This document shows, piece by piece, positions 8,682-50,703 of a stretch of DNA of 64,000 bases (position 1 is its first letter; each line of letters begins with the position of its first letter). The notes beneath the pieces are model-generated. The model was given only the letters and a program-made list of their open reading frames with translations, made no database searches and had not been told where the DNA came from. Position numbers and translations under genes: made by a program. Source of the DNA: Sphingobacterium allocomposti (GTDB lineage Bacteria > Bacteroidota > Bacteroidia > Sphingobacteriales > Sphingobacteriaceae); assembly GCF_008124885.1 (NCBI RefSeq), contig NZ_VNHX01000020.1:1-64000 (forward strand), in the 5' to 3' direction.

Positions 8682-8739
8682 TATTAAATCATCCAGAAGA
8701 AGGTCCGCGCTTTGGGGATACAGAGAACGGATGTTCGAA

Positions 8740-9244
8740 GGGAGAAGTGAGAAATCAGAAGTGAGAAGTTAGATATTAGAAATGAGATTTGAGTAGTGAG
8801 TATTGAGTAGCGTAGGCTCACTCATCTAACTTCACCTCACGACTTTACAAATCCACGACTTTACGGCTTATAGCCATTCGCCATTTGCCATTAGCCTTCT
8901 GCCATCCGCCATTCCCTACTAACCTCTCTCTTTACGACTTTACAAATCCACGACTTTACGGCTATTATTAGGAGTTAGAGTAGTTAGATGGGTTAGAATG
9001 GTTAGATGACGCTCGTTGCTATCAAAAACCACTTCACGATTTATAGCCGTCCGCCACTAGCCATCTGCCATTCGCTATCTGCCTCTCGCTTTACGACTTT
9101 ACAAATCAACGAATTTACGGCTTATAGCCATCTGCTATCTGCCATCTGCCATCCGCCATCCGCCATTAGCCTCTCCCTTTACGACTTCACAAATCAACGA
9201 CTTCACAAATCAACGACTTCACAAATCAACGACTTTACAAAACA
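8740..9244. repeat. Low-complexity word-repeat block between the two clusters
   Basis: This stretch is built from three recurring word families: AGAAGTGAGAAATCAGAAG-like words (about 8743-8800), GCCATCTGCCATCCGCCATT-like words (about 8871-8920 and 9040-9175), and CGACTTTACAAATCMACG-like words. At 9181-9260 the last family forms five tandem 16-bp units beginning ACGACTT. A 107-bp segment (8942-9048) recurs without change at 17999-18105. The same word families return at 17861-18177 and 46460-47065. I see no gene; frames that cross this block are only readings of the repeats. Confidence 0.8.
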
Positions 9245-9425
9245 ACGACTTTACACCTAACCCCTATTCCAAGGCAGCCCTGTGCGTGGGGAAAGGACCG
9301 GCATCGGTTCGACTGTGTCAGCGGGCCGCCATAATAGCCGTTAAGAACCGTTCCTTGTCTGAGCGAAGTGAGTTTGGAACGGTTTAGGCTAGGATAAGGC
9401 ACGGTAGCATCAAGAACCTCGGCCG
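9245..9425. repeat. 181-bp dispersed repeat, copy A
   Basis: This 181-bp unit matches 18178-18358 with eight substitutions and no gap (about 96 percent identity by eye), and its left half matches 46736-46830. It contains a 9-bp inverted repeat (AACCGTTCC 9346-9354, GGAACGGTT 9376-9384) around a 21-nt loop, so it can fold as a hairpin. It contains no supported reading frame. It lies directly before the promoter of the second cluster. Confidence 0.85.
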
Positions 9426-17860: not shown

Positions 17861-18177
17861 GGGCTTATAGCCATTTGCCATTAGCCATTTGCTATCTGCC
17901 ATCTGCCATCCGCCTCTTCCTTCACGACTTTACAAATCAACGACTTTACGGCTTATAGCCATCTGCCATCCGCCATTAGCCCCTCACTTTACGACTTCAC
18001 AAATCCACGACTTTACGGCTATTATTAGGAGTTAGAGTAGTTAGATGGGTTAGAATGGTTAGATGACGCTCGTTGCTATCAAAAACCACTTCACGATTTA
18101 TAGCCATCCGCCACTAGCCATCTGCTATCTGCCATTCGCCGTCTGCCATTAGCCATTAGCCATTAACCTCTCCCTTT
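17861..18177. repeat. Word-repeat block, second copy, with 107-bp identical segment
   Basis: The same word families as in 8740-9244 recur here (GCCATCTGCCATCCGCC, CGACTTTACAAATC). Bases 17999-18105 are identical to 8942-9048 in direct orientation. No gene is visible. Confidence 0.8.
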
Positions 18178-46455: not shown

Positions 46456-46548
46456 ACGGATGTGAGAAGTGAGAAATTAGAAGTGAGAAGTGAGATATTA
46501 GAAGTGAGATTTGAGTAGTGAGAAAAGTTAGATGGAGTTAGAGGGGTA

Positions 46549-46578
46549 GATTGCTTCGTCGTTCCTCCTCTCGATGAC
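46549..46578. repeat. REP-like motif, copy 2
   Basis: GATTGCTTCGTCGTTCCTCC then TCTCGATGAC. This copy is the closest to the widespread form of the element. Confidence 0.6.
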
Positions 46579-46636
46579 GGGGTTTTATGCCCTTTTTAGG
46601 CGTTTTTCACCTCGCTATGCCTATCGCGAAGATATT

Positions 46637-46701
46637 CGACCCCGTCGGGGTCGTGTAAATTAATGCCCGGTTTCTATTGGGATATGACCTCTACGAGGTC
46701 A
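46637..46701. repeat. Pair of perfect palindromes
   Basis: CGACCCCG-T-CGGGGTCG (46637-46653) and TGACCTC-TAC-GAGGTCA (46685-46701) flank CCCGGTTTCTATTGGGATA. Paired GACCCC/GGGGTC and GACCTC/GAGGTC palindromes joined by a TTTCTAT-type linker resemble intergenic palindromic repeats common in Bacteroidota; no gene is involved. Confidence 0.6.
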
Positions 46702-46735
46702 ATCGTTGTGCTTAGACCCGCGACTTTACATCTTT

Positions 46736-46830
46736 ACGACTTCACACACCTAAATCCTATTCCACGGCAGCCCTGTGCGTGGGGAAAGGACCGGCATTGG
46801 TTCGACTGCGTCAGCGGGCCGCCATAATAG
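46736..46830. repeat. 181-bp dispersed repeat, partial copy C
   Basis: Matches the left half of copies A and B (ACGACTT... to GCCATAATAG) in the same orientation with a 2-bp insertion near the left end, and then stops before the hairpin half. Confidence 0.75.
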
Positions 46831-47070
46831 ATATTAGAAGTGAGAAATCAGAAGTGAGAAGTGAGAAACTGAGTTAGATGTTAGGCCGCTTACAAATCAA
46901 CAACTTTACACCTTCGATTTACGACTTTACAAACCGACGACTTTACAGCTTATAGCTTATAGCCATCTGCTATCTGCCATTAGCCATCTGCTATCAGCCT
47001 CTCCCTTTACGACTTTACAAATCCACGACTTTACAAACCGACGACAACGACTTTACATCTTTACAAACCT

Positions 47071-47523: not shown

Positions 47524-47937
47524 CTAACCACAACTCCTAATCGCCAGAAACACGTCGTCTCCCTGGTCCCACAGCGCGTATACCAGCGCTTTCAGTTCCT
47601 GCAGGGCCGCCCTGCTGCCGGTCCCCTGCCCTTCGCCCGTCAGCGCCGTTACGGGAGCGATGCACCCGAGCAGTTCCTTCAGGGCATTGTTTGCGGGGTG
47701 TATCAGGATGGCCTCGCGGTTCAGCACATTCGGAATACCGATCTGCTCGCCATGCCGCGGGTATTGCCGCTTCTGCAGCTTATAGCGCCCCTCAGGTATG
47801 CAGCTGATGCGGGGGATATTATTGCGGTCGGGCAGCTCGATCGTATGGCAGATGTGCCGCCCCTGATAGGTGACGGTTCCGTTTGTTCCCTGTTCTCCGT
47901 ATTTCCGGCGGAGCACCAGGGTATGTGTATTCTTCAT
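47524..47937 (-). CDS. DUF5675-family protein (putative peptidoglycan-active)
   Basis: The 137-residue protein starts KNTHTLVLRRKYGEQGTNGT and contains ICHTIELPDRNNIPRISCIP, EGRYKLQKRQYPRHGEQIGI and AILIHPANNALKELLGCIAP. The IELP, EGRY and IHPAN-x-LKELLGCI blocks fit DUF5675, a phage-associated family with an L,D-transpeptidase-like pattern; the His and Cys in IHPANN...LGCIAP could be catalytic. It follows the 252-residue gene by 58 bp. Confidence 0.75.
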   Translation of the reverse strand: MKNTHTLVLRRKYGEQGTNGTVTYQGRHICHTIELPDRNNIPRISCIPEGRYKLQKRQYPRHGEQIGIPNVLNREAILIHPANNALKELLGCIAPVTALTGEGQGTGSRAALQELKALVYALWDQGDDVFLAIRSCG

Positions 47938-47995: not shown

Positions 47996-48754
47996 TTATG
48001 GCAGATCCACGTCAACGATGGTCAATGCGTTGTGCGGATTGTTTTTCAGGGGGTAGAATGCACCATTCGCCTCCTGATAGGTAGATATCCCGACCAGGAT
48101 ATAGACCACCTTATCGGTTGCGGGCGGCAGGTTCACCTGAATCGTCTCGGCCTGATGTACCCCTATGAGCGGAATATAGGAGGAGTGCTGCACCTCGGGC
48201 CGCGGAAGGTCGTCCATATCCAGCGCCTGCTCTACCGCTGCCAGCGTAAACTGTACGTGTGTGGCTCCCTCGAGCAAGGTGACTTTCTCACGCGGGTTGA
48301 ACTCCGGGATGTTCAATGTCACCTCGCCCGACGACCGGTCGTACGCTGTGGGAAGATCGCCGCCGAACATAAACCGCAGGCTGCTCGCTCCGTTGATCTC
48401 CAGACCCTTCAGCTGTCCGGAGTTTTCCGGCCGGAAGGTCCGCTGCCCGCGGGGGCTCACTGTATCGGCCTTCTGGATGCGATATACCGTAGACACAAGC
48501 CGGTTGCGGAAGGATTTGTCTGCCACGCCCCTGCTCAGGTTATTCAGCTGCAGGCGGATCACTTTGGCCATCTGTGTGGCCGAGGCAAACTCGCTCATGT
48601 TTTCACGCGTACGTTCGAAGTTTGGATCGCTCATGATACGCGCCCTGTCTACGCCGCCCTTCATGCGCACCTCGTACCCTCTTTCGCGGTGTTTGCTAAA
48701 GGAAAGATCCCCGATCGTTCCTCTAATCTTTACTAAACTTTCTTGTTTTGCCAT
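47996..48754 (-). CDS. Bacteroidota-specific protein with RTRENMSEF motif, unknown function
   Basis: The open frame reaches 48940, but ATG 48754 (MAKQESLVKIRGTIGDLSFS) is the likely start, because the upstream part lies in tandem repeats and a CACCTTTG -7-like box is at 48784-48777. The 252-residue protein has an N-terminal part (GGVDRARIMSDPNFERTREN, QLNNLSRGVADKSFRNRLVS, DTVSPRGQRTF) seen in a group of Bacteroidota hypothetical proteins, and a beta-rich C-terminal half. It has no signal peptide or membrane helix. It heads the operon with DUF5675 and the two small membrane proteins. I do not know its function. Confidence 0.75.
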   Translation of the reverse strand: MAKQESLVKIRGTIGDLSFSKHRERGYEVRMKGGVDRARIMSDPNFERTRENMSEFASATQMAKVIRLQLNNLSRGVADKSFRNRLVSTVYRIQKADTVSPRGQRTFRPENSGQLKGLEINGASSLRFMFGGDLPTAYDRSSGEVTLNIPEFNPREKVTLLEGATHVQFTLAAVEQALDMDDLPRPEVQHSSYIPLIGVHQAETIQVNLPPATDKVVYILVGISTYQEANGAFYPLKNNPHNALTIVDVDLP

Positions 48755-48804
48755 GATATTATTTGTTATGACAATCCAAAGGTGCAACAGCAAAAAATAA
48801 CTTC

Positions 48805-48914
48805 TGTCCAAAATGTCCGGATATGGCGAAAATGTCCTCTTTTGTCTTGATATGTCCGAAAATGACCAAAGTGTCCAAAAACGACCAAAATGTCTAAAAA
48901 CGACCAAAATGTCC
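48805..48914. repeat. Phased tandem array 1: 12 units of (T/C)G(T/A)CC, 9-10 bp period
   Basis: Pentamers TGTCC/CGACC and close variants begin at 48805, 48814, 48824, 48833, 48843, 48853, 48863, 48872, 48882, 48891, 48901 and 48910. Steps alternate between 9 and 10 bp. The units are separated by A-tracts, best seen in TGTCCAAAAACGACCAAAA. The period is not a multiple of three, so it is not a coding repeat. The array starts 21 bp upstream of the -7-like box of the gene starting at 48754. Confidence 0.85.
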
Positions 48915-48924
48915 AAAAAAGGTG

Positions 48925-49071
48925 ATACACCTGACTGCAAAAAAGGTACGCAGAGTGTACGGGGAGTGTACAGCGAGTGTACGGAAAAGGTACTGAAAAG
49001 GTACTACAGAGGTACTACAGAGGTACCAGAAAGGTACTAGAGAGGTACGGGAGATATACCGGGCACCGTAC
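48925..49071. repeat. Phased tandem array 2: GTAC every 11 bp
   Basis: GTAC begins at 48946, 48957, 48968, 48979, 48990, 49001, 49012, 49023, 49034 and 49045, ten copies in exact 11-bp steps, then ATAC at 49056 (11 bp) and GTAC at 49068 (12 bp). An ATAC at 48925 may be a degenerate left unit. Spacers are purine-rich and usually end in AG or AGT. It directly follows array 1 in the divergent promoter region between the minus-strand operon (48754) and the HTH gene (49392). Confidence 0.9.
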
Positions 49072-49391
49072 TTCTGTGGTAGTTGATCGACGGTTTGCTG
49101 GTCAGGCCGTATATCACGGTTAGCGACTAGTTAACCAATAGTTCATAGAAAAAACAAAAAACCATGAAACAAATATGTAACTCCTGTTGTTTTAATGTCG
49201 TTATTAACTTTCTTCATATAGGGGTATCCGTCGCCGGTATGCGACAGGCATTTTGGACGTATACATGCCGCCTTATTTGCCGCAGCGGGCGTACCGATAG
49301 GAGGTGTCATGCCGACCGGAGAATCATTGTCTAACCATGGTTGTCCGGCCATACCACTTATTGGCCACGACAACCCTCAGATTATGAACCC
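49072..49391. other. Gene-free stretch between tandem array 2 and the HTH gene
   Basis: A minus-strand frame (49143-49373) and the upstream extension of the HTH frame (TTG 49341) cross this region, but neither has a credible start or recognisable protein features. The promoter of the HTH gene must lie here; I see no clear TAnnTTTG box. Confidence 0.4.
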
Positions 49392-49592
49392 ATGCACGAA
49401 AAATCCCCCCGGCTGTGTATCACGCCGAAAGATATCGCTTATATTCTGAACGTCAGTCTGCGGCAGGCTAGCAGACGCTATAACCAAGTAAAAGACGCTT
49501 ACGGCCGTCTCCGCCACCAGGAGCTGACGGTCCAGGAGTTTGCCGATTACTACGGCCTGCCTGTGAACGAGATCTACGCGCGGATGCGCTAG
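49392..49592 (+). CDS. Small helix-turn-helix protein
   Basis: From ATG 49392 the product is 66 residues. ITPKDIAYILNVSLRQASRR reads as a helix-turn-helix, followed by YNQVKDAYGRLRHQELTVQE and FADYYGLPVNEIYARM. Similar short proteins with a conserved FxxYYG-type end are common in Bacteroidota. It is divergent from the operon at 47152-48754 with the tandem arrays between them, so it is a candidate to bind the arrays. Confidence 0.7.
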   Translation: MHEKSPRLCITPKDIAYILNVSLRQASRRYNQVKDAYGRLRHQELTVQEFADYYGLPVNEIYARMR

Positions 49593-49597
49593 GCACC

Positions 49598-50635
49598 TTA
49601 GGAGCGGTCTTCGTCGTCGCTGCCATCAGGCAGCAAAGTATGCAGCCAGTCCAGCGCACCCGGCGGCGTATCTGATCCAAGCGCGTTCCGGTACGCCGTT
49701 ATCCGCTCCTTGATATCTTTCAGGGTAGATGCCGACACCTTGACCTTCCTGTCCTCGCCGAAAAGCTGTACATAGGGCACTCCAGAAGCATATCCGACGG
49801 CGCGAATGGACATCAGCGGCACCAGCAGGCTCCGTTTAAGCTTAACCATCCAGAACGGAAACCGGCTGCCGATTTCCTGCAGAGAATCCTCCCGCACCTC
49901 GCCGACATGCCCACCGGGGAGACCAGCCTGCAGCATCTTCTGCCCCGCAAAAACCTTATCGATATAGACGGAGTCTGCCCGCACGACCGGCACCGGAACA
50001 AACTCCTTTCCGTCCAGGCGGACGTAAATGGGCTGTGTCAGCTCGAGCAGCCAAGCCCGCAGCTTCACGGCATCGCGCTTGGTGTTGGCAAGCTTGGGCT
50101 CCAATAATTCGATGCGGCTTAGGAGGCTCTTCTCCCTCGCGCCCGCCGTAGCGAGCGCCTCTGACAGCCTTTCAATGCGGATCCTGTTCTTCCGAAACTC
50201 AAAAAACACCTGCTCCATGATGACACAGAACACCACAACCACAAAATCGCGGTTCACATAATCGTGCTCCCATAAATTCGCCCCCAGAAAGCGGCTGTAA
50301 ATAAAATAAACCGCATACAGGATAACCGTCGGCAGTATAACACACAAGAGCGCTGCCTGCAGCAGCCAGCGCGCCAGCTCGTTCCGCTGAAAGTATGCAG
50401 ACCTATCCAAGCGGCAAACAACGATGGCGACCACCCACACAACGGGCACCATGAGCAACCATGTAAATAATAGGGTAAACAGATGAGGCCCCGTGCCTAC
50501 GCTCTGGAGCATCGGCAGGCGTGTCGCATAGAACGTAATCAATGCAGAAGCGACGAGCGCCATCGACAGAATGCCCAGCACTTTACCATACCATGAGCCA
50601 AAAAAAGATTTTTCGAACAAGCCATTTTTTTCCAT
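49598..50635 (-). CDS. Membrane-anchored LytTR-type DNA-binding regulator
   Basis: The 345-residue protein has four membrane helices (about 15-35, 48-75, 88-112, 118-135), a cytoplasmic coiled-coil (about 150-190, FFEFRKNRIRIERLSEALAT) and a C-terminal LytTR domain (about 215-320: FPFWMVKLKRSLLVPLMSIR, YVQLFGEDRKVKVSASTLKD). LytTR domains bind direct repeats in promoters. No histidine-kinase partner lies adjacent, so signal and control are probably in one chain. It converges on the small HTH gene, and the two stops are 5 bp apart. Confidence 0.85.
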   Translation of the reverse strand: MEKNGLFEKSFFGSWYGKVLGILSMALVASALITFYATRLPMLQSVGTGPHLFTLLFTWLLMVPVVWVVAIVVCRLDRSAYFQRNELARWLLQAALLCVILPTVILYAVYFIYSRFLGANLWEHDYVNRDFVVVVFCVIMEQVFFEFRKNRIRIERLSEALATAGAREKSLLSRIELLEPKLANTKRDAVKLRAWLLELTQPIYVRLDGKEFVPVPVVRADSVYIDKVFAGQKMLQAGLPGGHVGEVREDSLQEIGSRFPFWMVKLKRSLLVPLMSIRAVGYASGVPYVQLFGEDRKVKVSASTLKDIKERITAYRNALGSDTPPGALDWLHTLLPDGSDDEDRS

Positions 50636-50669
50636 AATCGAAACCTATTGGTCAGTCGGTTAAGTAGTC

Positions 50670-50703
50670 AAATTTAACGAAAAACAGTAAAACATCACAA
50701 AAA
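50670..50703 (-). promoter_or_regulatory. Promoter of the LytTR-type gene
   Basis: Minus strand TAAATTTG (50677-50670) as -7, and TTTTG (50703-50699) as -33, 21 bp apart. The start of transcription would be about 30 bp before the ATG at 50635. Confidence 0.6.

Follow-up and report, generated by a model that had tools for sequence, protein, structure and literature searches.

The DNA analysed here, a window of 64,000 nucleotides from Sphingobacterium allocomposti, holds a conserved, selected pair of phased repeat arrays between two divergent genes, one of which encodes a small helix-turn-helix (HTH) protein. We consider it rather probable that the arrays form the operator region of a divergent module that is itself conserved, and that the small HTH protein would bind there head to tail and cooperatively. 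The parts of the module and its surroundings are as follows.

47524..47937, minus strand: the DUF5675 gene, downstream of P0001.
47996..48754, minus strand: P0001, 252 aa, annotated without a function; modelled with helices at the N-terminus and with a C-terminal part rich in beta structure.
48805..48914, upstream of P0001: array 1, eleven TGTCC/CGACC-like pentamers at a mean step of 9.55 bp.
48946..49059, plus strand: array 2, ten GTAC at exact 11-bp steps with a further in-phase ATAC; core TAC.
49392..49592, plus strand: P0002, 66 aa, predicted tandem HTH protein, divergent from P0001; the proposed array binder.
49598..50635, minus strand: P0003, 345-aa membrane protein with a weakly LytTR-like C-terminus.

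The gene positions are as the first-pass annotation gave them, both arrays separating P0001 (minus) from the 66-aa HTH gene P0002 (plus), with 333 bp from the end of array 2 to the HTH start. Its ten GTAC copies at exact 11-bp steps were confirmed by a recount and by a scan of tetramers and periods. The copies lie at 48946, 48957 and so on to 49045 (n = 10, step exactly 11 bp) and span 48946–49048. Beyond them an ATAC at 49056 keeps the phase; a GTAC at 49068, 12 bp further on, is out of phase. When all 256 tetramers were scanned at periods of 5–23, the runners-up in the window were runs of six, GGTA and AGGT at 11, and these are the same array. Across the shuffles of the window that were listed, about two thirds of 100, no GTAC run was longer than three. 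Array 1 is less regular. It comprises six TGTCC, two CGACC, two TGTCT and one TGACC, at steps of 9, 19, 10, 10, 10, 9, 10, 9, 10 and 9, with one slot degenerate; the twelve pentamers first reported are thus eleven, and twelve only if that slot is included.

Do the arrays present their motifs on one face of the helix, as had been proposed? A turn of B-DNA is about 10.5 bp. Relative to it array 1 drifts by about 33° per step and array 2 by about 17°, so neither array lies strictly on one face of free B-DNA and the proposal holds only approximately. With an exact pitch of 11.0 bp and sites that precess round free B-DNA, a chain of protein imposing a pitch of its own, or one wrapped by the DNA, would be more natural than a flat array on one face. 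We found no description of the array element, and nothing on 11-bp repeats of Sphingobacterium or on GTAC in helical phase, in the titles and abstract openings of an open-access library. The window has other short-period arrays at 8737–9255, 17870–18163 and 46462–47045, with periods of 7, 14, 16, 21 bp and others and with motifs such as GCCATCT, GAAGTGA and ACGACTTCACAAATCA.

How well is array 2 kept in other species? In what follows, genus means Sphingobacterium and class means Bacteroidia. The P0001/HTH loci were found via P0001, not via the repeat; the array frame is the phase with most TAC, and the shuffles that set levels for in-phase TAC, for lag 11 and for a promoter element (below) keep base composition only. 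The TAC array is present at all 13 close P0001 orthologues (59–70% identity, from 13 other genomes of the genus), with 6–9 in-phase TAC per 110 bp, where 200 shuffles of each gave five at most. Its distance from the P0001 start varies from 116 to 310 bp. Only short open stretches, of 24–115 residues, cross the array at the P0001/HTH loci examined, and we conclude that there it is noncoding. In 15 pairs of noncoding orthologous arrays the TAC positions differ at 14 of 405 comparisons (3.5%) and the other eight positions, the spacer, at 200 of 1080 (18.5%); the middle A of TAC never differs (0/135). Variable spacers beside a constant TAC and a constant 11-bp step lead us to reject a simple microsatellite.

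The gene arrangement is kept as well. The HTH gene is divergent from P0001 at 23 of 24 further loci of the genus, the 24th (L200) being cut by a contig end. A profile detects relatives of P0001 in 38 of 295 genomes of the class and 27 of 155 genera. Upstream sequence is available for 28 class-level loci; the HTH gene is divergent at 17 of them and on the same strand at one, L244. Judged by sequence, the divergent P0001/P0002 pair recurs in other families of the class.

If the TAC core is so nearly frozen among close relatives, what is kept among distant ones? To judge by a ranking of 27 lags (5–33 without 22 and 33), it is the period. Lag 11 takes first place in 20 of 25 genus regions (L200 and 24 that have the HTH gene) and, among the 17 class regions whose HTH gene is divergent, in 11; pooled, it is on top in 31/42, against 8/139 control intergenic stretches from the same loci, from which 24 had been dropped as targets and 6 for holding a TAC array. 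At eleven more distant genus loci (34–46% identity) there are no more than four in-phase TAC and lag 11 still leads in nine, the motifs being GTAT, GCAT, GCAC or AGTA-like. Thus the motif drifts through GTAC, TTAC, GTAT and GCAT while the period stays at 11. Several class loci (L240, L245, L248, L251) have a repeat of roughly GYATAGATARW. Against this reading, a GYAT-type motif is absent from L242, L246, L247 and L261, the best window of L253 lies on the P0001 side, and in two genus regions (L192, L198) lag 11 does not rise above the best of 50 shuffles. Examined one by one, the arrays of the class are often short and weak: the 95% shuffle level is clearly surpassed by lag 11 in 8 of 28 class-level regions, five of them among the 17 with a divergent HTH gene. 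The stronger conservation of TAC than of spacer, and the retention of lag 11 in other species and families, bear out the first-pass view of a selected element at the level of DNA.

At some class-level loci the array meets the start of the HTH gene. A promoter element TAnnTTTG lies at the array start in 6 of 17 (0.8 expected); it does so in only one of 25 genus regions, which is L200 and not that of the window. At six of the 17 (L241, L243, L248, L253, L257, L258) the HTH start codon falls, by eye, in or at the last repeat.

Is array 1 also a feature of the module? Close to the P0001 start (up to 170 bp away) a lag of 9, 10, 19 or 20 comes out on top in 21 of 25 regions of the genus and in 8 of 17 of the class, but in only 21 of 145 control stretches, and TGTCC, TGGCC or TGACCC motifs are seen by eye near P0001 in many regions. 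From this enrichment we conclude that both arrays, and their two differing periods, belong to the module.

What might read the arrays? The conserved divergent HTH gene beside them makes a putative binding platform, which the first-pass annotation had suggested, the likely role. Array similarity follows HTH identity with a rho of 0.60 and with a partial correlation of 0.38 given P0001 identity, none of 2000 permutations reaching as high; P0001 identity itself retains 0.23 after HTH identity. This used 35 of the 42 regions, those with an array score of 0.44 or more and both proteins aligned. In 60 genomes of the genus, six TAC units and an HTH match occur together in 23, the array alone in 4, the HTH match alone in 6 and neither in 27 (counts made by hand; p 3e-7, a value that, like the others here, overstates independence because the genomes are related).

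Several observations go against P0002 as the reader. G013 and G059 combine a TAC array and a P0001 of 69–70% identity with an HTH protein only 34–35% identical to P0002. Four of the 27 array-bearing genomes of the genus (G007, G014, G024, G031) gave no HTH match. The genome of the window has one P0002 match for at least nine arrays, and its P0001 copy on C10 (89% identical) has an array and no HTH match. This leaves two options, a loose specificity or further factors that read the array too. Might the arrays then bind another factor altogether, be it a nucleoid protein, a wrapping enzyme or the membrane-bound, LytTR-like P0003, with the HTH gene a mere neighbour? The same exceptions would fit such a factor, as would the exact 11-bp pitch with flexible spacers, which would suit wrapping; P0003, moreover, adjoins the HTH gene in eleven other genomes of the genus. 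We regard this as rather unlikely, because motif similarity tracks HTH identity even after P0001 identity is allowed for. A single global factor does not fit the drift of the motif between paralogues within one genus, and P0003 does not fit G013 and G059, which have array and HTH gene and in which a search for P0003 within the genus found no match. Its resemblance to LytTR is itself slight (Pfam E 0.055, 14.1 bits, below the cut-off of 22.6).

With P0002 as the preferred reader, one protomer, or one HTH, would bind per repeat of the 11-bp array, and the protein would assemble head to tail, cooperatively, as a chain. Its occupancy would control both its own gene and the divergent P0001–DUF5675 operon. 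The 9.5/10-bp array near P0001 would be a second operator, for P0002 in another register or for another regulator. All four elements, the binder, the head-to-tail assembly, the autoregulation and P0001 as the output, are inferred.

Do the proteins themselves point to a known system? The model of P0002 (mean pLDDT 83.6) has four helices, which we read as two HTH, and its relatives align over the full length. Family searches gave weak HTH matches. A further match, over 25 residues (42–66), is to PADLOC mad1 (mads_1; E 9.3e-6), which we take to be Mad1 of the methylation-associated defence system. One P0002 relative (L191) matches the Cox-like phrog_575 at E 4.5e-4, P0002's own matches being weak. 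Foldseek returned no match to P0002 at E 0.001 or better. A second structural look placed BldC (6ama, Z 3.1; 6amk, Z 2.8) and RdfS (Z 2.5) among its neighbours, tied with unrelated rows; many of the top rows are calcium-binding (EF-hand) proteins of equally weak Z. P0001 has no family match in Pfam, PHROGs or NCBIfam, its relatives match Pfam at chance level only, and a fold search with it brought up nothing in PDB or BFVD at E 0.001 or better. It occurs in none of 50,697 phage records and one of 72,556 plasmid records, and a viral contig collection holds one distant relative, 28% identical. This near-absence indicates that the module is not a phage switch as it stands; it may have descended from one. 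DUF5675 follows P0001 at 19 of the 24 further loci in the genus and at 8 of the 29 in the class, the remainder carrying other genes there, some short and membrane-like by eye.

Small DNA-binding proteins comparable to P0002 include Apl of phage 186, Cox and Xis, the recombination directionality factors. The trait of their operators, direct repeats about one helical turn apart, is present here. The differences are several: in phage 186 the promoters face each other, whereas here the genes are divergent; the module is chromosomal and its partner operon is P0001 with DUF5675; there are ten or more units, with an adjoining second array of another period. No integrase was found among the 10 window proteins scanned. 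BldC of Streptomyces, of 68 residues, is reported to line up head to tail on direct repeats whose number varies (PMC5859096). It takes 9 bp per subunit where the repeats here are 11.0 and 9.55 bp, a comparison of repeat geometry alone, and the P0002 model, as we read it, has two HTH and no clear wing. BldC is among the weak structural neighbours of that model; the family searches found no BldC-type family. RdfS, the excisionase of a Mesorhizobium ICE, forms a head-to-tail oligomer on DNA and also regulates transcription, and its sites are described as having no obvious motif (PMC11963761). It belongs to an ICE system, unlike the P0002 module. An operator for P0002 that would work like those of phage Apl or BldC is the best reading.

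The first-pass annotation had also named a partition-like site, and the geometry invites it. The parC centromere of plasmid R1, with which ParR acts, has about ten 11-bp direct repeats, much as array 2 has. ParR, however, is a different kind of protein from the predicted tandem HTH of P0002. No actin-like ParM domain was found in P0001, DUF5675, P0003 or the other neighbours scanned, P0001 matches neither an ATPase nor a filament family, and its scarcity on plasmids and phages, given above, also speaks against such a role. We give a partition-like site, a centromere of the parC kind, scarcely any credence.

The 11-bp array is not confined to the module. In the window's own genome four GTAC units at 11 bp give 51 forward matches at a minimum of nine places (reversed control, 0). 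Eight of nine such arrays have a common unit order, a first unit of GAGT type or similar and then A/G-rich spacers; C5 differs. They lie beside genes of many kinds, among them a ribosomal protein operon (rplC), a dnaJ-type gene and one for a sigma factor. Of 60 genomes of the genus, 27 have six TAC units at 11 bp; five GTAC units are present in 8 of 59 relatives, the window's own genome included, and in none of the 23 from outside the genus. In public genomes at least 119 stretches match, in many phyla, and by eye those among the matches listed are mostly plain 11-bp tandem repeats. In the genus, then, the 11-bp element is copied to other sites in addition, and the first-pass suggestion that the repeat spreads is borne out. 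As to whether the arrays keep to the same flanking genes, which that annotation took as the point on which its reading would fall, the outcome is mixed: many lie away from them, and every close P0001 orthologue has its array.

Some of these arrays differ from plain tandem repeats or have companions. Eight loci (L033, L034, L045, L053, L058, L070, L084, L086), from Planctomycetota, Limisphaerales, Shewanella and a Bacteroidetes MAG, have GTAC at 11-bp steps with variable spacers. L008:9051-9821 holds a P0001 copy whose match ends after only about 25 codons, where a short-period array takes over; array 2 is still present upstream. In L009, L010 and L012 arrays of TTCG-N7 and CGAA-N7, of 11 bp, lie upstream of the GTAC array, with a TTACGCAAC..GTTGCGTAA-like palindrome between; in L017, L019 and L069 an 11-bp ACCCAAG array takes the place of the TTCG and CGAA arrays.

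Is the 11-bp array then mainly a self-spreading dispersed repeat, a satellite or mobile element with no regulatory role that persists beside P0001 by chance? Its many places and diverse neighbours in one genome, the shared unit order of eight of the arrays and the perfect 11-bp tandem repeats with GTAC in many phyla lend themselves to this explanation. We hold it to be decidedly unlikely. Chance persistence sits poorly with an orthologous array in all 13 of the species, where TAC hardly changes and the spacers change freely, with a period that is conserved across families while the motif diverges, and with the conservation of TAC at third codon positions described below.

Might the arrays act in RNA instead, as a structured leader of the HTH transcript? 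The RNA of the window array folds well, with a z of −4.42. In the own genome the array is co-oriented with the next downstream gene at 6 of 8 loci, or 7 of 8 if the 66-aa HTH gene, which falls under the script's 70-aa limit, is counted, and in some families the array lies at the promoter element of the HTH gene. Such folding is not conserved, however. Only 8 of 42 regions have a z below −2 (median −0.40), TTAC arrays fold no better than shuffles (L189, z 0.70; L190, z 0.30), and the interval 48000–50700 of the window has no Rfam match up to E 0.1. RNA structure was rejected as a general role, and an RNA leader is very improbable.

What of arrays that lie inside reading frames? The first-pass annotation had argued that a period that is not a multiple of three bespeaks selection on DNA and not on protein. 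The argument fails, since at 23 of 44 array loci (8 of the own genome and 36 of other genomes) the array lies within a long stop-free frame; the window's own overlapping 75-aa frame is excluded from these 23. Among 6,992 codons there are 2 stops in the coding frame, and 405 and 426 in the other forward frames; both in-frame stops are from L169, where the scan set out from the contig edge, ahead of the open stretch. In the majority, the frame opens at an upstream start, spans the array and continues through a signal peptide into a protein that by eye is TlpA-like or SusC-like; no signal peptide end could be located in 4 of the 23 (L151, L152, L159, L165), and that of L149 is doubtful. The amino acids of the extension are weakly constrained: dN/dS is 0.44–1.26 in 12 pairs, and change is roughly equal at the three codon positions. 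A protein-coding repeat as the sole explanation is rejected, on these ratios and on the short open stretches at the P0001/HTH loci.

The conclusion as to nucleic acid, on the other hand, stands. At third codon positions TAC differs at 22 of 702 comparisons and the spacer at 364 of 1872 (13 of the 23 loci, 10 having failed the peptide pattern), so that the array seems to be under constraint as nucleic acid even when it is translated. The point is softened by the search, since loci L142–L177 came from a scan for the TAC pattern, which is biased towards intact TAC.

The extensions, of about 150–470 codons, contain 11-bp and 7-bp phased DNA (L142, L144–L147, L149, L151–L153, L156, L159, L165–L174, L176, L012). 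Inverted repeats of about 14 bp are seen by eye in the signal peptide region of L012, L146–L147, L153, L156, L167–L174 and L176; they are perfect or nearly so, and their sequence differs between loci while the pairing is kept. At the same loci a second inverted repeat lies, by eye, at the signal peptide cleavage site. Site-specific recombination at an inverted repeat near the cleavage site was considered and set aside: 14 frame loci match one half of the pattern there, and both halves in strict form are limited to L153, L168 and L169. In the window nothing beyond stray half-matches was seen.

It is a tentative, somewhat doubtful possibility that the 11-bp TAC array is a portable nucleic-acid signal, which a chain-forming small DNA-binding protein would read at many chromosomal places and which this genus has built into translated frames ahead of TlpA-like or SusC-like signal peptides, so that one stretch would serve both as a weakly constrained protein extension and as a strictly phased DNA code. 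Such re-use of the array in stop-free coding extensions would make the superposition of a DNA code on a protein code open to test.

If the arrays are the operator of P0002, they would define an undescribed family of regulators with a conserved, two-period repeat operator, present in several families of the Bacteroidia and controlling the P0001–DUF5675 operon. The fixed period and drifting motif would then form a natural series of proteins and operators, in which the reading of pitch may be separated from the reading of sequence.
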